In this document: positions 32,810 through 63,991 of the stretch, piece by piece
Numbering within the stretch: position 1 is the stretch's first letter
Layout: every line of letters begins with the position of its first letter
From: Rhodanobacter sp.
GTDB lineage: Bacteria > Pseudomonadota > Gammaproteobacteria > Xanthomonadales > Rhodanobacteraceae
DNA length: 64,000 nt
NCBI GenBank assembly: GCA_004298505.1
Contig: SCRO01000046.1
Span: 23,589 to 87,588, forward strand
Reading direction: 5' to 3'
Program-made: the position numbers and the translations under genes
The notes under the pieces: generated by a model
The model's input: only the letters and a program-made list of their open reading frames with translations
Database searches by the model: none
What the model was told of the DNA's origin: nothing

Positions 32810-32885
32810 GGGTCGTTAGCTCAGTTGGTAGAGCAGTAGACTTTTAATCTATTGGTCCCGGGTTCGAGTCCCGGACGACCCACCA
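32810..32885 (+). tRNA. tRNA-Lys (anticodon UUU)
   Basis: 76 nt with encoded CCA. The acceptor stem GGGTCGT pairs with ACGACCC, the D-loop is AGCTCAGTTGGTAGAGC, the anticodon loop CTTTTAA has TTT at about 32843-32845, and the T arm is GGTTCGAGTCC. It lies downstream of tol-pal-cpoB, where E. coli also carries lysine tRNAs. Its 3' end abuts an integrase remnant, so it has probably served as an integration site. Confidence 0.97.
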
Positions 32886-44831: not shown

Positions 44832-45071
44832 ATGGCCACGCGACTCCATAGTGTGGCTTTGCTGCGGCGGGTAGCGGCAGCAATCGCTCTGCCGGGTTGG
44901 CGCTTGCAGACAACCGGCGCGGGCGCGTGGCATCCGGTGAGTGCGCAGATGCTGCGCTGTGGCATGCGTCGCCTGGCTGGTCTACAAATTCTGAGCAGCA
45001 ACACGGAGAGCAATGTGTCGACGTTGAGCCTCCGACTGGTCACCCGGCTCGCCCGCGGCGAGGTGGCCTGA
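44832..45071 (+). CDS. Hypothetical small protein downstream of hemP
   Basis: 79-aa open frame MATRLHSVALLRRVAAAIALPGWRL..., Arg/Leu-rich, starting 2 nt after hemP. No family recognised. The spacing suggests co-transcription, but the composition could equally be a chance ORF. Confidence 0.25.
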   Translation: MATRLHSVALLRRVAAAIALPGWRLQTTGAGAWHPVSAQMLRCGMRRLAGLQILSSNTESNVSTLSLRLVTRLARGEVA

Positions 45072-45117
45072 CGCCGACGCAAGGGTGGCGGATCGGCCTG
45101 CGTCCGTCTGTCCGCAA

Positions 45118-45133
45118 AGTGTCCGCGGACACT
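45118..45133. promoter_or_regulatory. 16-bp palindrome, likely enhancer (UAS) for NtrC-type regulator
   Basis: AGTGTCCGCGGACACT is a perfect 16-bp palindrome 64 bp upstream of the sigma-54 -24 box. A further half site TGTCCGC lies at 45109-45115, 11 bp before the matching half of the palindrome. The position and symmetry fit a binding site for the NtrC-type regulator encoded at 51987. Confidence 0.65.
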
Positions 45134-45197
45134 CGCATGGCGTGGATGAAATCCCGCAAGCTGTTGAATTGCAGTACCTGATTCAGTTTCCGTGGCG

Positions 45198-45213
45198 TGG
45201 CACGCGGATTGCA
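45198..45213 (+). promoter_or_regulatory. Sigma-54 promoter of the ABC export operon
   Basis: TGGCAC-GCGGA-TTGCA is an exact match to the sigma-54 -24/-12 consensus TGGCAC-N5-TTGCA, 44 bp before the adaptor gene start. Confidence 0.85.
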
Positions 45214-45257
45214 GAGCCTCGTGTGTAACCGCATGGCATGCGGTCAGGGACGGCACG

Positions 45258-46529
45258 ATGATCCGCGATACCTCCGCAACCGACCGCCTGGTCGAGGTCA
45301 AGCCCAATCGCAAGCGACAGCTGATCCTGGCCGGTATCGGCGTTGTCGTCGTGGCCCTGCTGGTATGGCTGGCGCCGAGGATCGGCCGGCTGTTCTCGGC
45401 CTCCGGCTCGGTGAGCGCATCGCGCCTGTCGTTCGCCACCGTCGAGCGCGGGCCGTTCGTGCGCGACATCGCCGCCGAGGGCAAGGTGGTCGCCGCGGTC
45501 AGCCCCACCTTGTACGCCACCTCCGGCGGTGCGGTCACCCTCAAGGTGCACGCCGGCGACACGGTGACCAAGGGCCAGGTGCTGGCCACCATCGACAGCC
45601 CCGAGCTGACCAACAAGCTGGCGCAGGAGCAGAGCAACGCCGACGCGATGCAGGTCGATTACCTGCGCGCGCAGGTGGATGCGCGCAAGCAGCGTTCGGC
45701 GCTGCAGAAGGCCTACGACAACGCCAAGATCGACCAGCAGACGGCCGAACGCGACCTGGCCCGCTACGCAAAAGCCTTTCACGAGGGTGCCGTGCCGAGC
45801 ATGGACGTCGACCGCGCCAAGGACACCCTGGACAAGGCCAACATCGCTGTCGCGCATGCACGCAGTGATCTGGGCATGGACAACGCCAGCCTCAATTTCG
45901 ACATCCAGTCGAAAAAGCTGGCACACGATCGCCAGCTGCTGCTGGTGGGCGACCTCAAGCGCCAGGTCGATGACCTCAACGTGAAGTCGCCGGTGGATGG
46001 CCAGGTCGGCCAGCTGTTCATCGCCGAAAAGGCCACCGTCGCCAAGGACGCCAAGCTGCTCAGCGTGATCGACCTGTCGGCGTTGCAGGTGGAAATGCAG
46101 GTGCCGGAAAGCTTCGCGCGCGATCTTGGCATCGGCATGACCGGCGAGATCAGTGGCAACGGCCATACCTGGAAGGGCATCGTCAGTGCAATTTCGCCCG
46201 AAGTGGTCAACGGCCAGGTCGCCGCCCGCCTGCGCTTCGATGGCAGCACGCCCAAACAGCTGCGCCAGAACCAGCGCCTGTCGGTACGCGTGCTGCTGGA
46301 CAAGCGCAGCAACGTGCTGACCGTGCAGCGCGGCTCCTTCGTCGACGAATCCGGCGGCAGCTATGCCTACGTGGTACGCGACGGCATCGCGACCAAGACC
46401 CCGATCCGCGTCGGCGCCTCCAGCATCGACAAGGTGGAGATTCTCGAAGGCCTGAAGGAAGGCGACAAGATCGTGATTTCCGGGACCGACAATTTCAAGG
46501 GCACGGCGAAGGTCGCGATCAGTAACTGA
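45258..46529 (+). CDS. HlyD/MacA-type periplasmic adaptor
   Basis: 423 aa from MIRDTSATDRLVEVKPN, with AGGGA upstream. One N-terminal membrane helix (about 21-39), a lipoyl-type half (AVTLKVHAGDTVTKGQVLATIDSPEL), a long alpha-hairpin (about 115-230), the second lipoyl half (VKSPVDGQVGQLFIAEKATV), then beta-barrel and membrane-proximal domains. It links an inner-membrane ABC exporter to an outer-membrane channel. First gene of the sigma-54 operon; the outer-membrane factor is not in the window. The substrate is unknown. Confidence 0.9.
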   Translation: MIRDTSATDRLVEVKPNRKRQLILAGIGVVVVALLVWLAPRIGRLFSASGSVSASRLSFATVERGPFVRDIAAEGKVVAAVSPTLYATSGGAVTLKVHAGDTVTKGQVLATIDSPELTNKLAQEQSNADAMQVDYLRAQVDARKQRSALQKAYDNAKIDQQTAERDLARYAKAFHEGAVPSMDVDRAKDTLDKANIAVAHARSDLGMDNASLNFDIQSKKLAHDRQLLLVGDLKRQVDDLNVKSPVDGQVGQLFIAEKATVAKDAKLLSVIDLSALQVEMQVPESFARDLGIGMTGEISGNGHTWKGIVSAISPEVVNGQVAARLRFDGSTPKQLRQNQRLSVRVLLDKRSNVLTVQRGSFVDESGGSYAYVVRDGIATKTPIRVGASSIDKVEILEGLKEGDKIVISGTDNFKGTAKVAISN

Positions 46530-46534
46530 CTGCC

Positions 46535-46617
46535 GGGAATGGGTAATGGGTAATGGGTAAGGCGAAAGGCATGCGGCCCAGGGCTTTTAACTATTCTCCA
46601 TTCCCTATTCCCACTCC
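46535..46617. repeat. Heptamer inverted repeat between adaptor and ATPase genes
   Basis: The left arm, GGGAATGGGTAATGGGTAAT... (46535-46560), pairs with the right arm, CTATTCTCCATTCCCTATTC... (46591-46617), across 30 nt. GGGAATG/GGGTAAT subtype of the family. Confidence 0.85.
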
Positions 46618-46673
46618 ATCGAACCACACATTCCGAACCACTGTGCACTTCAACGACAACGAGTAACCACGCT

Positions 46674-47393
46674 ATGTTGAAAATGACTCACCTGTCCAAG
46701 GTCTACCGCACCGAAGTGGTGGAAACCTATGCGTTGCGCGATTTCAACATCGACGTGAAAGAGGGCGAGTTCGTCGCCGTGACCGGCCCGTCCGGTTCGG
46801 GCAAGACCACCTTCCTGACCATCGCCGGCCTGCTGGAGACTTTTTCCGGTGGCGAATACCACCTCGACGGCATTGAGGTGAGCAACCTCAACGACAACGC
46901 GCGCTCGAAGATCCGCAACGAGAAGATCGGCTTCATCTTCCAGGCGTTCAACCTGATTCCCGACCTCAACGTGTTCGACAACATCGAGGTGCCGCTGCGC
47001 TACCGCGGCATGAAGGGTGCCGAGCGCAAGCAGCGCATCATGGAATCGCTGGAGCGCGTCGGCCTGGTCTCGCGCGCCAAGCACTACCCGGCCGAACTCT
47101 CCGGCGGCCAGCAGCAACGCGTGGCGATCGCCCGCGCGCTGGCCGGCGGCCCGCGCCTGTTGCTGGCCGATGAACCGACCGGCAACCTCGACACCCAGAT
47201 GGCGCGCAGCGTGCTGGAGTTGATCGAGGACATCCACCGCGACGGCGCCACCATCGTGATGGTCACGCACGACCCGGAACTGGCCGCCCGCGCCCAGCGC
47301 AACGTGCACATCATCGACGGCCAGGTGGTCGATCTGGCGGAGGAGCCGCGCTTCCACACGCACGCCGATGCAGCCGCGCAAACCCACCCCTGA
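46674..47393 (+). CDS. ABC transporter ATPase (MacB/LolD type)
   Basis: 239 aa. Walker A GPSGSGKTT (38-46), Q-loop FQAFNLIPDLNV, signature [15 protein letters not shown], Walker B LLLADEPTGNLD and H-loop VTHD. It belongs to the MacB/LolD/FtsE type and pairs with FtsX-like permeases downstream. A short His/Ala tail follows. Shine-Dalgarno is weak. Confidence 0.95.
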   Translation: MLKMTHLSKVYRTEVVETYALRDFNIDVKEGEFVAVTGPSGSGKTTFLTIAGLLETFSGGEYHLDGIEVSNLNDNARSKIRNEKIGFIFQAFNLIPDLNVFDNIEVPLRYRGMKGAERKQRIMESLERVGLVSRAKHYPAELSGGQQQRVAIARALAGGPRLLLADEPTGNLDTQMARSVLELIEDIHRDGATIVMVTHDPELAARAQRNVHIIDGQVVDLAEEPRFHTHADAAAQTHP

Positions 47394-47404
47394 TCCGTGC
47401 GTTG

Positions 47405-47504
47405 TTGTAGGAGCGCACCCTGTCCACAAGGGACTTCCTGCGGTCGTGCGCGAATGCTTTTCGGTGATGTGGCAAAAGCTCGCGCACAGGGTGCGCTCCT
47501 ACAA
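47405..47504. repeat. REP-like element with perfect 19-bp GTAGGAGC arms
   Basis: TTGTAGGAGCGCACCCTGT (47405-47423) and its exact reverse complement (47486-47504) flank 62 nt. The interior pairs partly as well (TGCTTTT with AAAAGC). It sits between the ATPase and permease genes and shares the outer motif and the ATGCTTTT interior with the sucC-sucD element. Confidence 0.9.
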
Positions 47505-47539
47505 ATTTGCTGACGAACACCACTGCACAGGTATTTCGA

Positions 47540-48850
47540 ATGTTCGCTTATTACCTCCAACTCGGCCTGCGCAGCCTGCGCCGCAATCCGGCGCTGACCG
47601 CCCTGATGGTGATTGCGATCGGCTTCGGCGTGGCCGCGTCGATGACCACCTATGCGGTGTTCCGGGCGGTGTCGGGTGATCCGATCCCGTGGAAGTCGGG
47701 TCAGTTGTTCGTGCCGCAGATCGACAGCTGGGGCCCGGGTCAGGGTCGTCAGGCCGGCGATCTGCCGGATGCGTTGAGCTATACCGATGCGATGGCGCTG
47801 ATGCGGGCACACGTCGCTCATCGGCAAACCGTGATCTATCCGGTGGGCTTGTCGTTGATTCCGACCGGGCAGACCGCCAAACCCATTGCGGCGCACGGCT
47901 ACGCCACCTATACCGACTTTTTCAGCATGTTCGACGTGCCGTTCCTGTACGGCAGCAGCTGGCCGGTGTCGGACGATACCGGGCGCGGCAATGCCGTGGT
48001 GATTACCCGCAAGCTCAATCAGCGCCTGTTCGGTGGCGCCGACAGTGTCGGCAAGGTGATCAACCTGGACGGTAGCGACTACCGCGTGAGTGGCGTGATC
48101 CGGGACTGGAATCCCAAGCCGCGCTTCTTCGACGTGGCCAATGGCAGCGGGTTCGGTGGCGAAGCAGACTTCTATATGCCGTTCACACGCGCCATCGATT
48201 TGCAGATCGGTACCGACGGCAACAACAACTGCACCAAGGTGGCGGCTGCCGGCTGGGACGGCTGGCTGCATTCGAGTTGCGTGTGGATCGCGTATTGGGT
48301 GGAGTTGCCGACGGCCGCGGCGGTCGCGCGCTATCGCGACTATCTCAAGGGCTACGCCGCCGATCAGCGCAAGTCGGGTCGTTTCGACTGGACTCCAGCG
48401 GTGCGATTGAGCGATGTATCGCAATGGCTAAACCTCCAACACGTGGTGCCGCCGGAGACGCGAGTATCGATGCTTATCTCGCTGGGCTTCCTGGTGGTGT
48501 GCCTGGTCAACACGATCGGCCTGCTGCTGGCCAAGTTCATGCGCCGTGCACCGGAGATCGGCGTGCGTCGCGCATTGGGGGCGTCGCGGCGCGAAATCTA
48601 CAAGCAGTTTTTGCTGGAGGCGGCTGCCGTGGGGCTTGCCGGCGGTGTTCTGGGTCTGTTGCTGACAGGCGTCGGCATGCTGGGCGTGGGGCTGGTATTC
48701 GAAGCGGACGTCGCCCGACTGGCGCACATGAACCTGTCGCTGGTGATGCTGACTGTGCTGGTGGCCGTGGTCGCCACGCTGCTGGCGGCGCTCTACCCGA
48801 CCTGGCGCGCGGCCAGCGTGCAGCCGGCCTGGCAGCTGAAGTCCAACTGA
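47540..48850 (+). CDS. MacB-like ABC permease 1
   Basis: 436 aa from MFAYYLQLGLRSLRRNPALTAL. MacB/FtsX topology: one N-terminal helix, a large periplasmic domain (about 45-310), then three C-terminal helices with the GVRRALGASRREIYKQFLLEAA coupling loop. Partner of the ATPase at 46674 and of permease 2. The ORF-track start at 47507 reads out of the repeat element. AGG upstream. Confidence 0.92.
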   Translation: MFAYYLQLGLRSLRRNPALTALMVIAIGFGVAASMTTYAVFRAVSGDPIPWKSGQLFVPQIDSWGPGQGRQAGDLPDALSYTDAMALMRAHVAHRQTVIYPVGLSLIPTGQTAKPIAAHGYATYTDFFSMFDVPFLYGSSWPVSDDTGRGNAVVITRKLNQRLFGGADSVGKVINLDGSDYRVSGVIRDWNPKPRFFDVANGSGFGGEADFYMPFTRAIDLQIGTDGNNNCTKVAAAGWDGWLHSSCVWIAYWVELPTAAAVARYRDYLKGYAADQRKSGRFDWTPAVRLSDVSQWLNLQHVVPPETRVSMLISLGFLVVCLVNTIGLLLAKFMRRAPEIGVRRALGASRREIYKQFLLEAAAVGLAGGVLGLLLTGVGMLGVGLVFEADVARLAHMNLSLVMLTVLVAVVATLLAALYPTWRAASVQPAWQLKSN

Positions 48851-48867
48851 CAGCGAGGAGATCGACC

Positions 48868-50091
48868 GTGCAGATCAAACCGATTCTCACCGCCCTGCGC
48901 CATCACAAGGCCGGCACCGTATTGATCGTGGTGCAGATCGCGCTGACCTTGGCGATCGTCTGCAACGCGCTGTTCATCATCCATCAGCGCGTGGCACAAC
49001 TGTCACAACCCAGTGGCCTTGAAGAGGCGAACCTTATCCGCATCCAGAACCAGTGGGTAGGCAAAGCCGACGACAAGGCCTACGGCTCATTGATGGCAAC
49101 CGATCTGGCTACCTTGCGAAGGCTGCCCGGTGTCGCCGATGCCTATGCCACCAACTCGGTGCCTTTGAGTGGTGGTGGCTGGTCGATGTCGCTGCGGCTC
49201 AAGGCTGATCAATCGGCACCGAGCGCGCAGACGGCCATCTATTTTTCGGACGACCACACGCTCTCCACGCTGGGCCTGAAACTGGTGGCAGGGCGCAACT
49301 TTCGCGCTGACGACATCCGCCCGATGAGTGCCAAGGACGATCTCCTGCACCCGGCGGTAATCATCGTCACCCGCACGTTGGCCGACAAGCTGTTTCCGAC
49401 CTCCACGGCCGTGGGAAAGACGGTCTACCTGGCCAACCACGTCAGCACCATCATCGGTGTGGTCGAGCGCATGCAAACTCCCTGGTTGGGCATGAGCTGG
49501 GGCAGCGCCGCATCGACATTGGTGCCATTTCGGCTGCTCACCGATGGCACTAATTACGTGATCCGTACCCAACCCGGGCAGCTCGACAGGGTGCGGCGCA
49601 GCGCACCGGAGGCCTTGTTTGCGCAGAACCGGATGCGGGTGATCCCTGACCAGCATGGGGTGGAGACGTTCCGGCAGATCCGCGCCGATGCCTATGCCAG
49701 CGATCGCGGCATGGCGATTCTGATGGCGGTGATCTGCGTCATGCTGCTGGCGATTACCGCCGCGGGCATTGTCGGCTTGACCAGCTTCTGGGTCGGTCAG
49801 CGGCGCAAGCAGATCGGCGTGCGCCGTGCGCTCGGCGCCACCCGCGGCGACATCCTCAGTTACTTCCTCACCGAAAACCTGCTCATCGGCATGGGCGGGG
49901 TGTTGCTTGGTATCGCCCTGGCGATCGGCCTGAACCTGTGGATGGTGACCCGCTTCGAGATGCAGCACCTGTCGCTGTGGTACGTGCTGGCCGGTGCCGT
50001 CGCGCTGCTGCTGCTCGGTCAGGGCGCGGTGCTGGCGCCCGCGCTGCGTGCGTCGCGGGTGCCGCCGGTAGAAGCGACGAGGTCCGTGTGA
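48868..50091 (+). CDS. MacB-like ABC permease 2
   Basis: 407 aa from GTG 48868, with GAGGAG upstream. Same topology: N-terminal helix (TVLIVVQIALTLAIVCNALFI), periplasmic domain, three C-terminal helices with GVRRALGATRGDILSYFLTEN. The two permeases probably form a heterodimer. The ORF-track start at 48277 lies far inside permease 1 in another frame and is rejected. Confidence 0.92.
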   Translation: MQIKPILTALRHHKAGTVLIVVQIALTLAIVCNALFIIHQRVAQLSQPSGLEEANLIRIQNQWVGKADDKAYGSLMATDLATLRRLPGVADAYATNSVPLSGGGWSMSLRLKADQSAPSAQTAIYFSDDHTLSTLGLKLVAGRNFRADDIRPMSAKDDLLHPAVIIVTRTLADKLFPTSTAVGKTVYLANHVSTIIGVVERMQTPWLGMSWGSAASTLVPFRLLTDGTNYVIRTQPGQLDRVRRSAPEALFAQNRMRVIPDQHGVETFRQIRADAYASDRGMAILMAVICVMLLAITAAGIVGLTSFWVGQRRKQIGVRRALGATRGDILSYFLTENLLIGMGGVLLGIALAIGLNLWMVTRFEMQHLSLWYVLAGAVALLLLGQGAVLAPALRASRVPPVEATRSV

Positions 50092-50227
50092 TGCCGAAAA
50101 ACCGGCCACAGCCACGCAGGGTGGCCACTGCCCGCCGCGCCACCTCACCAGGCCAAGGCTTTTTCATGGGACGAGCGGATGGCGGACGGTGCCCGCCCTG
50201 CGACGGCGACGTTTTGGAGGGGACGTG

Positions 50228-51802
50228 ATGTTTGGCTATTACCTGGAACTGGTACTGCGCAGTCTCAAGCGCAACAAGGTGCTGACCGCGCTGATGGTGC
50301 TGGCGATCGCACTGGGCATCGGTGCGTCGATGACCACGCTGACCGTGCTGCATGTGCTGTCGGGTGATCCGCTGCCAGGGCGCAGCAGCACGTCGTATTA
50401 CCCGCAGATCGATCCGCGCGACAGGTGGCTATGCCAGAAACAAGGCGCCGCCAGATCAGTTGGCCTGGATCGACGCGATGAATCTGCTGCATGCCCGTCG
50501 CGCCGTGCGCCAGGTGGCGATGACCGCGGGCCAGGTGGTGGTGCAGCCGCCGCAGGGAAGTAGCCGTGCGTTCTTTGCCAGTGCGCGCTATACCTCGGCC
50601 GATTTCTTCACGATGTTCGAGGTGCCGTTTGCCTACGGCAGCGGCTGGACGGCGGCGGACGATGCGCGGCAGGCGCATGTAGTGGTCATTGCGCGTGATC
50701 TTGCCGTCAAGCTTTATGGCGCGGATCACGCGGTCGGCAAGTCGCTGCGGCTTGGCAAGGATGTTTTTCGTGTGGTCGGGGTGATCGATCCGTGGCAGCC
50801 GGTACCGCGTTTCTACGACCTGACCCAGGGCAGCTATGCCAAGGTCGAGCAGGTGTTCATGCCGCTGGAAACCGCGATAGCGCTGAAGCAGCCGACTGAA
50901 GGAAACTTCATGTGCTGGGGCGATCAGGCCCTCAACAACAAGGACATGAAATGGGCCTCCTGCACCTGGATTCAGTTCTGGGCACAGCTGGATACGCCCG
51001 CCCAGGTGGTGAGCTATCGCGATTATCTGGTGCATTACTCGCAGAAACAAAAAGCGCTGGGTCGTTTCCAGCGGCCGCCAAATGTCCGCTTGCACGACTT
51101 GATGGGTTGGCTTGATGTCAATCATGTCGTGCCGGGCAGTGTGCAGTTGCAGACGCTGCTGGCGCTTGGCTTCATGCTGGTATGCCTGGTCAATACCGTG
51201 GCCTTGTTGCTGGTGAAATTCTTGCGACGCGGCGCTGAACTGGGTATCCGCAGGGCGATGGGCGCTTCGAATATGTGCTGCGCACGGCGCCGGGTGCGCG
51301 CGACGCCACGTTGCACGACCTGCCCAGGGTGCTCGATGGCGTCGACAGTCGTCGCATCATCACCGAACGCCACAGCTATGCGCAGACGGTGAAGTCCTAT
51401 TTTCACGACGACCGCGCGCTGATCTGGTTGCTGCTGCTGGTGGTGATCGGCTGCCTGCTGGCCTTGTCCGCACTGGGCGTGGTTGGGCTGTCCAGTTTCT
51501 GGGTGCAGCAGCGCACGCACCAGATCGGCATTCGTCGCGCCATCGGTGCCACCCGGCGCGACATCATGCTGTATTTCCAGATCGAGAACCTGCTGATTGT
51601 AGGTGTCGGCATCGCGCTGGGTTCGCTGTGTGCAGTGGTGTTGAACTTGTTGCTGATGAAGCACTACGAACTGCCACGGCTGCCGTTGTCCTACCTGTCG
51701 ATCGGCGCGCTGGTTCTGTGGCTGCTTGGCCAGCTGGCGGTGCATGGCCCGGCACTGCGTGCGGCTGCCGTGCCGCCGGTGGTGGTGACGCGGAGTGTGT
51801 GA
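50228..51802 (+). pseudogene. Collapsed second permease pair (deletion fusion plus frameshift)
   Basis: It begins like permease 1 (MFGYYLELVLRSLKRNKVLTAL, strong GGAGGGG site), then shifts frame near 50424 (DPRD to GGYARNKAPPDQLAWID). The next frame runs to LGIRRAMGAS near 51270. There the sequence jumps into the middle of a permease-2-like gene in a third frame (FEYVLRTAPGARDATLHDLP) and continues to PPVVVTRSV. About 1 kb, covering the end of one gene and the start of the next, appears deleted. No full-length product is possible. Confidence 0.85.
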
Positions 51803-51850
51803 AATGACTGTGTCAGGTATACGCGCGCCGCCGCATGGCGACCGCTACAA

Positions 51851-51911
51851 GGCAGCCCGTACGGGTTGCCTACATGGCGGCGTTATCACTCGGTCGTGTA
51901 TCGACATACAC
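51851..51911. repeat. Two inverted repeats upstream of the response regulator
   Basis: GGCAGCCCGTACGGGTTGCC (51851-51870) is a near-perfect palindrome, and GTGTAT-CGAC-ATACAC (51896-51911) is a 6-bp inverted repeat. Both lie in the 184-bp gap before the regulator gene and may be regulatory. Confidence 0.4.
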
Positions 51912-51986
51912 TCTCTCACTCTTCCTTGCCCTGCGGTCAACCCGATCCCGGCGCGAGGTGCTCGGGATATGAAGGCAGGCTCTGAA

Positions 51987-53330
51987 ATGACCCGCAGCGT
52001 ACTGATCATCGATGACAACCCGGCCGTGGGCGAGGCGTTGTCGCTGGCGTTGTCATTGCACGACATCCATCCGCTTACGGCGCTGACGCCGGAGCAGGGG
52101 CTGGCGCTGCTGGGGCGCGAGACGGTCGACGTGGTGATCCAGGACATGAACTTCAGCGCCGACACCACCTCGGGCACGGAAGGCGTGGCGTTGTTCCGCG
52201 CGATCCGCGAGCGCTATCCGGACCTGCCGGTCATCCTGCTCACCGCGTGGACGCATCTGGAAACCGCGGTGGAACTGGTCAAGGCCGGTGCCGCCGACTA
52301 TCTGGCCAAGCCGTGGGACGACAACAAGCTGTTGGCCACGGTGGAGAACCTGCTGGAGCTGTCCGAGTCCAGTCGCGAGGTGAGCCGCAGTCGACGCGAA
52401 CGCCGCCAGCGGCGCGAAGCGCTGCGCCAGAAGTACGACCTGGATGGTCTGGTGTTCGCGTCCGAGGCCATGGCGCGCACCCTGGACCTGGCCTGCCAGG
52501 TCGCCCGCTCCGACGTGTCGGTACTGATCACCGGCCCCAACGGTACCGGCAAGGAACGCATCGCTACGATCATGCATGCGAACTCGCCGGTGGCGCGCGG
52601 TCCGTTCATCGCGGTCAATTGCGGTGCGCTGCCGGGCGAGTTGATCGAAGCGGAACTGTTCGGTGCCGAGGCCGGTGCCTATACCGGCGCGAACAAGGCG
52701 CGCGAGGGCCGCTTCGAACTGGCCGATGGCGGCACGCTGCTGCTGGACGAGATCGGCAACCTGCCGCTGCCGGGCCAGATGAAGCTGCTGCGCGTGCTGG
52801 AAACCGGTCGGTTCGAGCGACTCGGTTCCGGCAAGACGCGCCAGGCCAAGGTGCGCGTGCTGAGCGCGACCAATGCTGACCTCAAGGCGATGATCCGCGC
52901 CGGCACCTTCCGTGAGGATCTGTACTACCGGCTCAACGTGATCGAGGTGAACCTGCCGCCGCTCGCCGGGCGCAACGACGATATCCTGCCGCTGGCCGAG
53001 TTCTTCCTCGACGGCCGGGGCGAGTTGGGTGACCCTGCGCGCGAGGCCCTGCTCGGCTATCCGTGGCCGGGCAACGTGCGCGAACTGAAGAATGCGATCG
53101 AGCGCGCCGCCTTGCTGGCCGGGGACGGCCCGATCACGCCGGAGCTGCTCAACTTGCCGCAGTATGTCTCCACCGTCCGCCGAGATCTCGACGAACCCAG
53201 TCGCGAGGTGGTAGAGAACGCGTTGCAACAGGCTGGCGGTGTAGTCAGCCGCGCGGCGCGGCAGCTGGGTCTGTCGCGGCAGGCGCTGTACCGGCGGATA
53301 GAGCGCTACGGACTGGCGGCGTCGAACTGA
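51987..53330 (+). CDS. Sigma-54-dependent response regulator (NtrC family)
   Basis: 447 aa from MTRSVLIIDDNPAVGEAL (ATG 51969 adds six residues). Receiver domain (1-125) with phospho-acceptor Asp53. AAA+ domain with Walker A GPNGTGKE and Walker B GGTLLLDEIGNL. The sigma-54 contact loop reads GAYTGA, not the usual GAFTGA. C-terminal Fis-type HTH (SRAARQLGLSRQALYRRIERYG). It should activate the sigma-54 promoter at 45198 in response to the kinase downstream. Confidence 0.94.
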   Translation: MTRSVLIIDDNPAVGEALSLALSLHDIHPLTALTPEQGLALLGRETVDVVIQDMNFSADTTSGTEGVALFRAIRERYPDLPVILLTAWTHLETAVELVKAGAADYLAKPWDDNKLLATVENLLELSESSREVSRSRRERRQRREALRQKYDLDGLVFASEAMARTLDLACQVARSDVSVLITGPNGTGKERIATIMHANSPVARGPFIAVNCGALPGELIEAELFGAEAGAYTGANKAREGRFELADGGTLLLDEIGNLPLPGQMKLLRVLETGRFERLGSGKTRQAKVRVLSATNADLKAMIRAGTFREDLYYRLNVIEVNLPPLAGRNDDILPLAEFFLDGRGELGDPAREALLGYPWPGNVRELKNAIERAALLAGDGPITPELLNLPQYVSTVRRDLDEPSREVVENALQQAGGVVSRAARQLGLSRQALYRRIERYGLAASN

Positions 53331-53396
53331 GATCGCGTACTTGTCGCACTACCGCCGTCGTACAAAGATGGACCATGGAAACGGAGGAGTTGTCGC

Positions 53397-53600
53397 ATGA
53401 TTTTCCCAGGTCCACTGGCCGTCTTGGCGACGCTGCTTGCCGCCGCCACGGGCCGACAACATGGCTGCCGTGATGAGTCCGCAGCGGCCGTGGCAGAATG
53501 CCCGTCCGCCGGTGGATGGCGCACTGGAACCGAGGGGCCCGGCATGTCGATGAGCGGTTCACGCCCTATCGGGGGCCGCCGGCGATGTGGCGCCATCTGA
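53397..53600 (+). CDS. Possible small protein between regulator and kinase
   Basis: 67-aa ORF, MIFPGPLAVLATLLAAATGRQHG..., with a strong GGAGGAG site 7 nt upstream and a hydrophobic N-terminus. It overlaps the kinase start by 16 nt. No family recognised. It could be a leader that couples translation to the kinase, or chance. Confidence 0.3.
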   Translation: MIFPGPLAVLATLLAAATGRQHGCRDESAAAVAECPSAGGWRTGTEGPGMSMSGSRPIGGRRRCGAI

Positions 53601-55006
53601 CCACGCTGCGCGCGCGGCTGAGCCTGCTCCTGCTCGCCGCTGGGGTGGCCGGTGCGCTGATCTTCGCGGGGGTCACGCAGTGGCCGTTGCCGCAATTCCT
53701 GGCGTGGCTGCACACTCAATTGACGGTCCCGGTTGATGTGACGGCCGTGCCGGCCAAGGCGCCGCCGCTACCGCATCTGGATATCTACACTGCGTTGGCG
53801 ATCGGGCTGGTGCTGCTGTTGCTGGCCGCCATCTGGCTGGCCGGACGCGCGATGGCGCCGGTGAGCCGTTTGCTGCGTGCGCTGGAAGGCGCGGTGGCTA
53901 GTTATCGGGATGGTGATTTCAGTTTTTCGATCGCCGTCGACCGGCGCGACGAGCTGGGTCGGCTGATCCGCATGCACAACGACCTGGGCCATACCCTGCG
54001 CGAGCAGCGCCAGCACCTGGCCCAGCGCGAACTGTTGCTGGATACGGTGGTGCAGAACACGCCGGTGGCGCTGGTGCTGACCGACCCCGTCGGCCGCGTC
54101 GCCTACGCGAATATCGCCTCGCGGCATTTGTTCAACGAAGGCCGCAGTCTCAGCGGGCTGGAGTTCGCTCAATTGCTGCTCAATGCGCCGAAAGTGTTGC
54201 GGCAGGCGGTGGATAGTGGTGAAGACACCCTGCTCACGGTGGAGATGGACGGCAACGAGGAGACCTTCCACCTGTCGCAACGTGCCTTCCGCTTGCAGGG
54301 GCGACCGCATCGGCTGCATTCGTTCCGGCGCATGACGCGCGAGCTGTCGCGGCAGGAGGTGGCGACCTGGAAGCGGGTGATCCGGGTGATCAGCCACGAG
54401 CTCAACAATTCGCTGGCGCCGATTTTCTCGCTGGCACATTCGGGCGCGGAGCTGGCCCGGCGGGGCGACATCGAGCGCCTGCCGCATGTGTTCGCCACCA
54501 TCGGCGAACGCGCCCGCCATCTGCACGGGTTCATCGCTGGCTACGCCAGTTTCGCCAAGTTGCCCACGCCGCAGCCGGTGGCGGTGGCCTGGCCGGCATT
54601 TCTGGAAAGCCTGTCGCTGCATTGCCAGTATCGACTGGCGACCCCGCTGCCGGAGCGACCAACGTGGTTCGACGCGGCACAGATCGAACAGGTGCTGATC
54701 AACCTGATCAAGAACGCGCACGAAGCCGATGGCGCGGCCGGTGAAGTGACCCTGTCCATACTGCAAAACGCACATGATCTACGCATCGAGGTGGCCGATC
54801 GCGGCCCCGGCATGAGTGACGCCGTGCTTTCGCAGGCGTTGATTCCGTTCTATTCGACCAAGCGCTCCGGCACCGGCCTGGGCCTGGCACTGGCGCGGGA
54901 AATCACCGAGGCGCATGGCGGGCGCATTGCACTGGCGAATCGGGAGGCGGGCGGTCTGCGTGTCACCTTGCTTTTGCCGTCGACGAATCGCCAGGAGCGC
55001 GCTTGA
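53585..55006 (+). CDS. Sensor histidine kinase (NtrY-like)
   Basis: 473 aa from MWRHLTTLRARLSLLLLAAG; starts at 53516 or 53498 are possible. Two membrane helices (about 11-30 and 69-88) flank a short periplasmic loop, followed by HAMP (90-140), PAS (about 155-240), a HisKA-like box VISHELNNSLAPI (His271), and an HATPase with NLIKNAHEAD and GTGLGLALAREI. Partner of the NtrC-type regulator. The small periplasmic loop suggests sensing within or at the membrane. Confidence 0.93.
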   Translation: MWRHLTTLRARLSLLLLAAGVAGALIFAGVTQWPLPQFLAWLHTQLTVPVDVTAVPAKAPPLPHLDIYTALAIGLVLLLLAAIWLAGRAMAPVSRLLRALEGAVASYRDGDFSFSIAVDRRDELGRLIRMHNDLGHTLREQRQHLAQRELLLDTVVQNTPVALVLTDPVGRVAYANIASRHLFNEGRSLSGLEFAQLLLNAPKVLRQAVDSGEDTLLTVEMDGNEETFHLSQRAFRLQGRPHRLHSFRRMTRELSRQEVATWKRVIRVISHELNNSLAPIFSLAHSGAELARRGDIERLPHVFATIGERARHLHGFIAGYASFAKLPTPQPVAVAWPAFLESLSLHCQYRLATPLPERPTWFDAAQIEQVLINLIKNAHEADGAAGEVTLSILQNAHDLRIEVADRGPGMSDAVLSQALIPFYSTKRSGTGLGLALAREITEAHGGRIALANREAGGLRVTLLLPSTNRQERA

Positions 55007-55744
55007 CTACGGCGGGTCTGACTTGGTGGACAAGCCGGAAAAGTCCGCGCTGGCCGTTCGGTCGAGTTTCTTGCGTTGCGCCGGCAACGGCTCTCCCGTG
55101 GCCTGGAACCACACGTTCTCGGCGATATTGGTGGCGTGGTCGCCGATGCGCTCGATGTTCTTGGCCATGAACAGCAGGTGCGTGCACGGCGTGATGTTGC
55201 GCGGGTCTTCCATCATGTAGGTCAGCAACTGGCGGAAGTAGCCGGTGTAGGCCTCGTCCAGCACTGTGTCGTTCTTCCACACCGCGTAGGCGCGTTCGGT
55301 GTCCCGATCGTGATAGGCCGCCAGTACGTCGCGCACGCCGGTTGCCGCCAGTCTTGCCAGGTGTTCGAGGCCGGCCGCAGGCCGGACCGGTGCCACCATC
55401 GATAGCGGGATCGAGCGCTTGGCCACGTTGGCGGCGTAGTCGCCGATGCGCTCGATATCCGCCGCAATGCGCAGCGCGGCAAACACGTTGCGCAGGTCGC
55501 CAGCCATCGGCGCGCGCAAGGCCAGCAGGCGCACGACATCGTGACTGACCTCCTGCTCCATCCGGTCGATCGTGTCGTCGTTGTCGACCACGCGCTGGGC
55601 GGCCCGCTCGTCGCGGCGTTCCACCACGTCGATCGCCGCCTCCAGTTGCTTCACCGACAACTCGCCCATGTGCACGATTTCGCCAGTCAGTCGGCTCAGT
55701 TCGGCGTCGTAACTCTTGATGATGTGATCTTTGCTGGTGGTCAT
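55007..55744 (-). CDS. phoU: Phosphate-transport regulator PhoU
   Basis: 245 aa from MTTSKDHIIKSYDAELSRL, with GAGG upstream. Two tandem PhoU helical bundles carry the metal-binding E/D-rich motifs (RIAADIERIGDYAANVAKRS, FMAKNIERIGDHATNIAE). PhoU links the Pst transporter to PhoR and restrains Pho signalling. The ORF-track extension to 55807 reads through a heptamer element. Confidence 0.96.
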   Translation of the reverse strand: MTTSKDHIIKSYDAELSRLTGEIVHMGELSVKQLEAAIDVVERRDERAAQRVVDNDDTIDRMEQEVSHDVVRLLALRAPMAGDLRNVFAALRIAADIERIGDYAANVAKRSIPLSMVAPVRPAAGLEHLARLAATGVRDVLAAYHDRDTERAYAVWKNDTVLDEAYTGYFRQLLTYMMEDPRNITPCTHLLFMAKNIERIGDHATNIAENVWFQATGEPLPAQRKKLDRTASADFSGLSTKSDPP

Positions 55745-61272: not shown

Positions 61273-61345
61273 GTGCGCCAGGCATGGCGCGTAGCGCCGT
61301 GACTGGCGCTGTCCTGGCTATCCGCCGCTTTCTTGACCCATGGAA

Positions 61346-62530
61346 TCACGATGCGCCTGCCGATCCTCGTTGTCTGTCCTCGCACAGCTGAATTCTCGCC
61401 TCAACCGGCAGAGCCCGACACACTGCCAGAGAATTCAGCAGCTTCTCGAACTCGGCGATTACCGCATCCGGTGGGCAATGTTGCGCGGCGCGTCGGGCGT
61501 TGGCGCCCAGCACCCGGCATGCCTCGGGATCCAGGCCAAGTTGGTAGGCCGCTGTGATGAATCCTCGTGCGTCCGTTGTCGGTACCAGCAGCCCGGAGAT
61601 GCCGTTGGCCACGTGCTCCTGCGCGGCTGCCCGGTCGAAGGCGACGACCGGCAGGCCCGACGCCATGGCCTCCAGCACGACGTTGCCGAAGGTCTCCGAC
61701 AGGCTCGGAAACAGGAACAGGTCCGCACTGGCGTAGTGCGCGGCCAGTTCCGTGCCGCGCTTCGCTCCGACGAACAACGCATCCGGATAAGCGGCGGCCA
61801 GCGCATCGCGCTGGGGGCCGTCGCCGACCAGGACGATACGCGCGCGGGGTAGACGCGCGTGCAAGGCGCGGCAAGCCTGCACGGCGAACCCGAGGTTTTT
61901 TTCCGCGGCGAGCCGGCCGACGCACAACAATACCGGGGTGTCGTCGTGGACGCCCCAACTCCTACGCAAGGCAAGGTCGCGCCGTTCCGGCGTGAACAGC
62001 CTGCTGTCGACGCCGCGGCGCAGTTTCTGTACGTGGTCGATGCCGGCGTCCGTCAATTCGGCGCGCAAGGCGCCGGTAGGAACCAGCGTCATTTGCGCGC
62101 GCCGGTGGAAGCGCAGCAGGTGTTTGCGTACCAGCGGCGCCAGAAGTTCGATGCCGTAGTGTGCGGCGTAGTCGTGGAAGTGCGTGTGGAAGCCAGTCAC
62201 GACGGGTATGCCCAAGGTGTTTGCCGCGCGCATCGCCGATACGCCCAGCAGACCCTCCGTCGCGATATATATCGCATCGGGCCGCTGCGCGATCCAGCGC
62301 CTGCGCAGGGCGTTTCCCGCGGGCAGGCCAAACTGCACACTCGGGTAGCCCGGCATGGCTACGCCAGGCGCACACACCAGACCGACGTTGCCGGCGCGGC
62401 CGTTTGCACCCGGTCGCACTACCTCGACGTCAAAATCGCGCGCGGCCAGTCCCTCGGCGAGCGTGCGCACGCTCAGGGCCACGCCATGCCCCTGGGGTGG
62501 CCAGGTTTGTGTGACAAAGGTGATCCGCAT
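61346..62530 (-). CDS. GT4-family glycosyltransferase
   Basis: 394 aa from MRITFVTQTWPPQGHGVALSV, with GGAG upstream; the upstream ORF-track extension is rejected. GT-B fold: an N-terminal acceptor domain (TGFHTHFHDYAAHYG), then VGRLAAEKNLGFAV and the nucleotide-sugar site LFLFPSLSETFGNVVLEAMASG with the Ex7E motif. It resembles bacterial mannosyl- or glucosyltransferases acting on lipids. Placed between phosphate-porin and phoR genes, it could make glycolipids that replace phospholipids under phosphate limitation; that is only inference. Confidence 0.85.
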   Translation of the reverse strand: MRITFVTQTWPPQGHGVALSVRTLAEGLAARDFDVEVVRPGANGRAGNVGLVCAPGVAMPGYPSVQFGLPAGNALRRRWIAQRPDAIYIATEGLLGVSAMRAANTLGIPVVTGFHTHFHDYAAHYGIELLAPLVRKHLLRFHRRAQMTLVPTGALRAELTDAGIDHVQKLRRGVDSRLFTPERRDLALRRSWGVHDDTPVLLCVGRLAAEKNLGFAVQACRALHARLPRARIVLVGDGPQRDALAAAYPDALFVGAKRGTELAAHYASADLFLFPSLSETFGNVVLEAMASGLPVVAFDRAAAQEHVANGISGLLVPTTDARGFITAAYQLGLDPEACRVLGANARRAAQHCPPDAVIAEFEKLLNSLAVCRALPVEARIQLCEDRQRGSAGAS

Positions 62531-62633: not shown

Positions 62634-62707
62634 CCCGCCAGGCTCCTAGGTGCACCCTCCGCTAGACGCACCCTATGGCGATAGCATCATCTCGCTCTCC
62701 GAAGTTT

Positions 62708-63991
62708 CTACAGCCCACGCTCCTGGGCTCGGCGGACGCCATCGTTTTCCGGCGGCAGCACGCGCGAGGCATCCATCACGCAGGAGAATGTCGAGCCCCG
62801 TCCAGGCTCGCTTTCGATGACCAGGCGTCCCTGGTGCAGGTTGAGCACGTGCTTGACGATCGAGAGCCCGAGGCCGGTACCGCCGGATTCACGCGAGCGG
62901 CTGGACGACACGCGATAGAAGCGTTCGGTGAGGCGACTGAGATGCTCCGTGGAGATACCCAGCCCGCTGTCACGCACCGAGAAGGTGGCTGCGCCGTCGG
63001 CAGTCTGCCGCCAGCCAATCACGATCTGACCGCCGCTGGGCGTGTAGCGCACGGCATTGCTCACCAGGTTGGAGAAGGCGCTGTGCAAGTGGTGGATCGA
63101 GCCACGCAAGCGAGCCTGGCTGCCCGCGTCAACGGTAATGTCATGCCGGCCCCGGCTGAGCGCTTCGGCTTCGCGACGCAGCGTCTCCAGCAGCGGAACC
63201 ATGTCCACCTCCTCGTCGGGCAGGGCCTCTCGTGTTTCCAGTCGCGACAGCGTCAGCAGGTCCTCGACGATTTGCCGCATCCGTTGCGATTGCAGGCGCA
63301 TCTCGCTCAGCACCGGCGCCAGCTCGGGCATGTCCGCCGGATCGAGCAGTTCCAGGTAACCATGAATGACGGTCAGCGGCGTGCGCAATTCATGTGATAC
63401 GTTGGCGACGAAATCGCGTCGCACTTGTTCCAGCCGGCTCAGCGTGCTGATGTCGCGCGCCAGCAGCAAGCGCAGCTGTGATCCGAACGGCATGATCGTC
63501 ACGGCCAGTCGCAGCGAGGCGTCTGCCGGTGCGGGCATGTCGGTCGCCGGTTGGTGCAGGTCGGTCAGCAGCCATGCGCCGAGTTCGCTGCCATCGAGCT
63601 GCTCGGCCAGCGGACCATCGGGGTGTCGCTTGCGCAACCCCAGCAGGCGGTTGGCTGCGGCATTGCGCCAGCGCACATTCCCCGTGCGGTCGAGCAGCAC
63701 GATGGCATCGGGCAGGGAACTCGCCGCGTCACGCACGTCGCGCAGCTGCGCCAGCAGGCGGCGTTGGCGCGTTCGCTGTGGGCACGATCGAAGTCGCGCC
63801 TGGTGCGGTTCGCGAGCCCTGGTTCTCGCCTCGGACAGCTGCCACAGCAACACGATGACTGGGCCACCGAGCGCCACGCAGAAAGCCCACCACGTGAGCC
63901 CCCACAGTCCAGCCACCATGACGGCCAGGGCCAGGGTCGTGAGCAGGATGGCCGCGGGCCACGCTGAAAACCGGGTGTTCGCGCTGCCCAC
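62708..63991 (-). CDS. phoR: Phosphate-regulon sensor kinase PhoR
   Basis: 427 aa from GTG 63991, though the frame stays open to the window edge, so the true start may lie outside. Hydrophobic N-terminus (WPAAILLTTLALAVMVAGLWGL), PAS domain (LPDAIVLLDRTGNVRWRNAAA), HisKA FVANVSHELRTPLTVIHGYLELL and HATPase (LVSNAVRYTP, GTGLGLSIVKHV). PhoR phosphorylates PhoB when phosphate is scarce; phoB would be expected just beyond the window edge. Confidence 0.92.
   Translation of the reverse strand: MGSANTRFSAWPAAILLTTLALAVMVAGLWGLTWWAFCVALGGPVIVLLWQLSEARTRAREPHQARLRSCPQRTRQRRLLAQLRDVRDAASSLPDAIVLLDRTGNVRWRNAAANRLLGLRKRHPDGPLAEQLDGSELGAWLLTDLHQPATDMPAPADASLRLAVTIMPFGSQLRLLLARDISTLSRLEQVRRDFVANVSHELRTPLTVIHGYLELLDPADMPELAPVLSEMRLQSQRMRQIVEDLLTLSRLETREALPDEEVDMVPLLETLRREAEALSRGRHDITVDAGSQARLRGSIHHLHSAFSNLVSNAVRYTPSGGQIVIGWRQTADGAATFSVRDSGLGISTEHLSRLTERFYRVSSSRSRESGGTGLGLSIVKHVLNLHQGRLVIESEPGRGSTFSCVMDASRVLPPENDGVRRAQERGL

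Follow-up and report, generated by a model that had tools for sequence, protein, structure and literature searches.

Organization of the export locus

The window, the whole stretch of 64,000 nucleotides that was analysed, belongs to a draft Rhodanobacter genome of 139 contigs (G000) and carries a putative export locus, all features of which lie on the forward strand. At its upstream end stands a gene for a periplasmic adaptor (MFP, RND_mfp/HlyD_D23 type by Pfam and NCBIfam; 45255..46529), which passes the RND_mfp model TIGR01730 with 130.9 bits at a cutoff of 94.9, followed by a gene for a DarD/LolD-like ABC ATPase (46674..47393; Pfam ABC_tran), the sole ATPase gene of the locus. Two intact permease genes come next, A1 (47540..48850) and B1 (48868..50091), whose products share 97% and 96% amino-acid identity with A1 and B1 of the related genome G039. 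Both permeases carry the Pfam domains MacB_PCD and FtsX, with scores of 77 and 59 bits for A1 and of 56 and 61 bits for B1 that all pass the respective cutoffs of 27 and 25.5. Beyond a remnant of further permease genes at 50228-51802, the locus continues with genes for an NtrC-family, sigma-54-dependent response regulator (51987..53330; Pfam Response_reg, Sigma54_activat, and HTH_8) and a sensor histidine kinase (53498..55006; HAMP and HATPase by Pfam). Outside the remnant, the remaining genes of the locus are all open, and no outer membrane channel gene was seen within the locus in this genome. No RNA or tRNA element was found at the remnant site, the sole match in the window being tRNA-Lys at 32810. 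PADLOC returned just weak and generic ATPase and FtsX matches at the locus, and a reading as a defence system was dropped on that account.

Several short repeats accompany these genes. A REP-like inverted repeat (TAGGAGCGCACC ... GGTGCGCTCCTA) occupies 47405-47505 between the ATPase gene and A1, and similar copies are present in the array spacers of G039 and G019 as well as on contigs C5, C80, C87, and C95 of G000. Further short repeats at about 62646-62724 and at 61321-61430 of the window occur in many copies in relatives, the former being especially frequent in G019, where several copies lie near contig ends.

For comparison, the locus was fetched and its genes were typed across the genus. 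Where both ends of the array lie on one stretch, adaptor and ATPase genes are followed by A and B permease genes, which alternate with a few exceptions, and by the regulator gene, with the kinase gene next wherever enough sequence was fetched. Two of the genomes, G039 and G019, are metagenome-assembled genomes (MAGs) whose contigs match BWSM_3 and FW106-10_bin.24 and break, in both cases, inside the array.

A permease remnant in two reading frames

The remnant starts with an ATG at 50228 and its stop codon ends at 51802, exactly as given in the preliminary description of this DNA. BLASTP likewise agrees with the earlier observation that the first two thirds resemble permease 1 and the last third the end of permease 2, with the junction falling within GCTTCGAATATG: the piece from 50228 matches permease 1 at 60% (E 1e-23), positions 50433-51272 match residues 76-349 of the same permease at 43% (E 3e-76), and positions 51272-51799 match residues 230-407 of permease 2 at 46% (E 1e-39). 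Homology and Pfam matches divide the remnant into three segments, namely the 5' end of an A3-type permease gene (segment 1, 50228..50424), the middle of an A5-type permease gene (segment 2, 50433..51271), and the C-terminal part of a B5 permease gene (segment 3, 51272..51802).

Following this homology had been thought to take three frames, yet two are enough, with segments 1 and 3 sharing one (51272 − 50228 = 1044 = 3 × 348) and segment 2 alone being shifted. Segments 1 and 3 coincide in frame because the net losses at the two joins between them add up to 2 + 973 = 975 nucleotides, a multiple of three. A compensated, functional fusion was considered and rejected, since the approximately 840 bases between these segments lie out of frame, with a stop among them. 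The frame of segment 1 terminates at 50561-50563, and the remnant therefore has no single open reading frame. Pfam places MacB_PCD in segment 2 only and FtsX in segment 3 only, in different frames, so that the two domains never share one open frame, as they do in a permease of the MacB/FtsX type. A5 and B5 are open and intact in G039, whereas the same genes are disrupted here by the stop at 50561-50563 and the 973-bp loss, as expected of a pseudogene; the earlier proposal of a dead second pair is thereby borne out. The remnant reads as a dead chimera of three permease genes, predicted to yield no working permease, and no function is supportable for it.

A residual use of the remnant, whether segment 2 or 3 yielded a short membrane protein or the DNA served as recombination material for rebuilding pairs, is hardly credible. 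It would fit the low dN/dS that both segments keep (0.11-0.15) and the apparent recombination of arrays at conserved gene ends, but no segment holds a complete MacB_PCD plus FtsX permease, the in-frame start of segment 3 is just an internal GTG, and low dN/dS values can simply reflect the time before inactivation. Returning to the dead chimera, we infer its decay from structure alone, and relaxed selection was dropped as evidence for the age of the defect for want of a signal. Segments 2 and 3 have accumulated 42 synonymous and 18 nonsynonymous changes on the G000 branch compared with 36 and 16 for the two relatives together, and hence no relaxed constraint is seen on the G000 branch. The genes thus probably remained functional through most of this period, and the inactivation of the remnant is dated as probably recent.

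A 973-bp deletion and a paralogue switch

Close orthologues of the broken genes are present in only two of the 44 other genomes of the genus, G039 and G019, and are unfused in both. Aligned with G039, positions 1-1044 of the 1575-bp remnant match at 92% and positions 1045-1575 at 90%, with 973 bp of the relative lying in between; the length is likewise 973 bp in G019, even though a contig breaks off within A5 there. The fusion deletion of roughly 1 kb that had been postulated is therefore of the correct size with respect to both relatives. This join (J3, 51271..51272) connects A5 out of frame to B5, and its flanks show 90-92% DNA identity to the orthologues in G039 and G019 and meet at 51271|51272. 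Segment 2 shares 95-96% amino-acid identity with A5 of the two relatives and segment 3 shares 90-91% DNA identity with their B5. What J3 removed is the end of the A5 gene together with the beginning of B5; in G039, A5 and B5 are intact open frames. As the two ends of the deletion have 0 bp in common in either relative, J3 looks like end joining without microhomology.

Upstream of this deletion, the preliminary description had placed a frameshift near 50430. An out-of-frame defect does exist there (J2, 50424..50433), but it is no plain frameshift, as it coincides with a switch between A paralogues. Segment 1 finds its best match in A3 of G039, with 90% DNA identity overall and 95% over 50330-50423, while A5 fits worse, and the spacer DNA preceding segment 1 is of the type found before A3-type genes. 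Informative sites are A3-type at 19 of 22 positions up to 50424 and A5-type at 256 of 269 thereafter (Fisher 7e-22, a value that is indicative only, because the sites of one gene do not vary independently), and a net 2 nucleotides are lost within approximately 10 bp of the A3/A5 switch, causing the shift in frame.

A history of two events, in which a 973-bp fusion deletion and an independent small frameshift hit a single A gene, could build on J3, which is exactly such a deletion, and on the net change of 2 nucleotides at 50424-50433. We regard it as unlikely, given that the 196 bp ahead of the frameshift agree with A3-type genes and not with A5 (19 of the 22 informative sites) and that the upstream spacer DNA is also that of A3. 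The simplest reading of J2 is a recombination scar, in which one recombination between A3 and A5 would have left a broken frame. In G019, A5 is directly preceded by the A3-type gene, whose start lies 2,670 bp upstream, so that the loss of one pair length suffices to produce J2.

Alternatively, the genome might in reality contain several intact pairs, with paralogues having been fused by the assembler, a collapse against which the preliminary description had cautioned. The draft state of the G000 assembly, the identical runs of up to 59 bp that paralogous genes share in relatives, and the contigs of G039 and G019, both broken inside the array and indicating a region hard to assemble, all speak in its favour. 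Nevertheless, J3 ends without shared bases and J2 with only a few, such that no overlap could have made the joins, the lost sequence lies on no other G000 contig, and the contig itself runs well past both sides of the locus; a collapse is hence highly unlikely. No 20-mer is repeated within 45000-55100. Absence elsewhere in G000 was judged by DNA searches of its contigs, in which 16 kb of the G039 array matched this locus and short spacer repeats only, with no sign of the missing pairs. All four joins, J1-J4, are seen in G000 alone, which amounts to one genome for the species.

Probable contraction of a tandem array of permease pairs

The locus had been described as one that once held two permease pairs for one ATPase. 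Whereas the single ATPase gene stands, the number of pairs does not: G039 harbors at least seven, spread over two contigs, and other species harbor 2-9. Taking the count of full-length B genes as the pair number, the 28 genomes besides G000 with contiguous arrays (both ends on one stretch) contain 2-9 pairs per array with a median of 6, and G000, with its one intact pair, has fewer than any of them. Genomes assembled into one or two contigs (G001, G038, G044, and G009) contain 5-8 pairs, and the arrays are therefore not products of fragmentation. Outside the genus, a single pair is present in the examined loci of Paucibacter, Roseateles, Dokdonella, Pseudoalteromonas, Gilvimarinus, and Bowmanella, while Fulvimonas, unlike most of the distant genomes examined, has several. 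Since one pair prevails in most distant genomes, expansion of the array seems to have taken place within Rhodanobacter and close relatives, after which the species of the window seems to have reverted to one pair.

Two further joins, located by alignment and informative sites, lie on either side of the remnant. At J1 (50062..50092), the 3' end of B1 passes into the spacer that is found upstream of A3 in relatives, with one pair missing relative to G039. At J4 (51796..51830), the 3' end of B5 passes into the DNA that follows the last B gene (B7) in relatives, with pairs 6 and 7 absent relative to G039. Both joins fall at similar 3' ends of B genes. Given the variation in pair number among species, the arrangements at J1 and J4 could also predate the G039 order. 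In our judgement, with a probability of roughly 85%, the sequence at 50228-51802 is a dead chimera of three genes left behind when a tandem array of MacB/FtsX-type permease pairs contracted.

The pairs themselves behave as units. Nearest A and nearest B relatives were sought within one same genome for 191 complete pairs and belonged to the same pair in 190 of them, compared with 35 expected, a concordance that speaks for A and B acting together as one functional unit. LolCE (PMC8277102) and VarD/VarE (PMC5595328) suggest by analogy that A-B pairs are probably heterodimers; the surviving A1 and B1 would pair in this way and be powered by two subunits of the one ATPase, on the model of VarDEF or LolCDE.

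Probable import of the permease block

In 300-bp windows, the adaptor gene and most of the regulator gene are nearest to G014 or its near neighbours, mostly at 85-95% identity, whereas the region of about 47500-52150 is nearest to G039 or G019, with identities of up to 98% in A1. The adaptor (45255..46529) shares 95% amino-acid identity with that of G014 and 84% with that of G039, and is assigned to the G014-like background of the locus. Synonymous divergence draws the same boundary: dS between G000 and G039 is 0.72 in the adaptor and 0.62 in the ATPase gene, but 0.114 in A1, 0.227 in B1, and 0.158 in the A5 segment; between G014 and G039, the adaptor and ATPase values are 0.71 and 0.58. Identity between G000 and G039 amounts to 78% in the DNA beside the locus. 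The low dS of the block set against the high dS of its flanks argues for an exchange between lineages, which is probable, and the match of the flanks to G014 gives the direction of transfer as into G000.

Judging from these identities, the permease block at about 47.5-52.15 kb (47500..52150, approximate boundaries), which comprises the array and the receiver end of the regulator gene, was probably imported from another Rhodanobacter lineage, and its breakpoints probably fall close to where the ATPase gene ends and within the part of the regulator gene that encodes the receiver domain. Import would have proceeded by recombination in conserved flanking genes. Pairs would have been lost, before or after this import, through recombination between similar tandem copies (J1, J2, and J4), and one end-joining deletion (J3) would also have removed pair DNA. 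At the start of the response regulator gene, positions 51987-52150 are closer to G039 and G019 and the rest is closer to G014; the gene (51987..53330) may be a hybrid.

Related exporters and a possible modular design

The working genes of the locus most plausibly encode a regulated exporter. Its domains, its adaptor, and the gene for an outer membrane efflux protein (OEP) that lies between the ATPase gene and the first A gene in the relative G017 (L142:2287-3636) support a putative tripartite pump. VarACDEF of Vibrio cholerae, comprising the permeases VarD and VarE, the ATPase VarF, the adaptor VarA, and the outer membrane channel VarC, has been shown to work as a tripartite exporter (PMC5595328). 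Likened by description, it has two separate MacB-like four-helix permeases, a separate ATPase, and an adaptor, as does the locus here, but differs in having one pair only and a LysR-type regulator in place of the NtrC two-component system. A second likeness is to the darobactin exporter DarBCD: the best NCBIfam model for the ATPase is NF038007 (DarD), and the better matches of the adaptor include DarC. Equivalog cutoffs are missed in both cases, however, with 254 versus 375 bits for DarD and 83 versus 450 bits for DarC, and the DarB model describes one permease of 777 positions, whereas the permease is split into pairs here. Judging by VarDEF and the Dar system, the exporter might plausibly carry peptides or antibiotics.

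A and B further match the N-terminal and C-terminal halves, respectively, of the ADOP model (TIGR03434), but the halves reside in separate genes and score 154 and 184 bits, short of the cutoff of 622. ADOP permeases are not known to be encoded beside an ATPase gene, which sets them apart from this locus with its ATPase gene (46674-47393) directly upstream of the permeases. With MacAB-TolC and LolCDE, both type VII ABC systems, the permeases have the MacB_PCD and FtsX domains in common. MacB is a permease fused to its ATPase, in contrast to the separate permeases here, and LolC/LolE is a heterodimer with a separate ATPase (PMC8277102). Rhodanobacter departs from both systems in having several pairs per ATPase gene. 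A narrow search of the open-access literature found no description of arrays of MacB-like permease pairs, and within the reach of that search we regard the array as a previously undescribed variant of a known exporter type.

The pseudogene itself is ordinary, and the exchangeable array of permease pairs is the more interesting part, given that the pairs are co-inherited, are accompanied by one ATPase gene, and have apparently been exchanged between lineages as a whole block. Tentatively, the exporter in Rhodanobacter might be modular, one adaptor and one ATPase serving a changing set of 1-9 pairs that are acquired, discarded, and traded between species in cassette form through recombination in conserved gene ends and flanking genes. 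Specificity would thereby be changed around a fixed motor, and the remnant would be a fossil of exchange and contraction, a scheme that we hold with more doubt than conviction. Provided that the pairs use the ATPase in common and handle different substrates, they would offer a natural system in which to study how one ABC motor serves many type VII permeases.

Irregular arrays and associated genes

Gaps of approximately 1.45 kb, similar in size to the one that holds the OEP gene in G017, separate the ATPase gene from the first A gene in about ten species. Between the last permease gene and the regulator gene, a DUF885 gene is present in G012 (L117:13363-15189), and gaps of approximately 2 kb at this position in many species suggest a DUF885 gene there also; G000, G039, and G019 have no such gap. 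Split A-type permease genes were observed once in G001 (L124/L125) and twice in G015 (L148/L149), and B genes devoid of an upstream A partner occur in G013 (L144), G016 (L150/L151), and G023 (L160). Single-gene loss in arrays seems recurrent, although some of the broken copies may be sequencing errors. In G023, the array is moreover cut by a rearrangement that places its adaptor and regulator ends approximately 200 kb apart (L160 and L161; contig C14), and the split point carries broken B genes.
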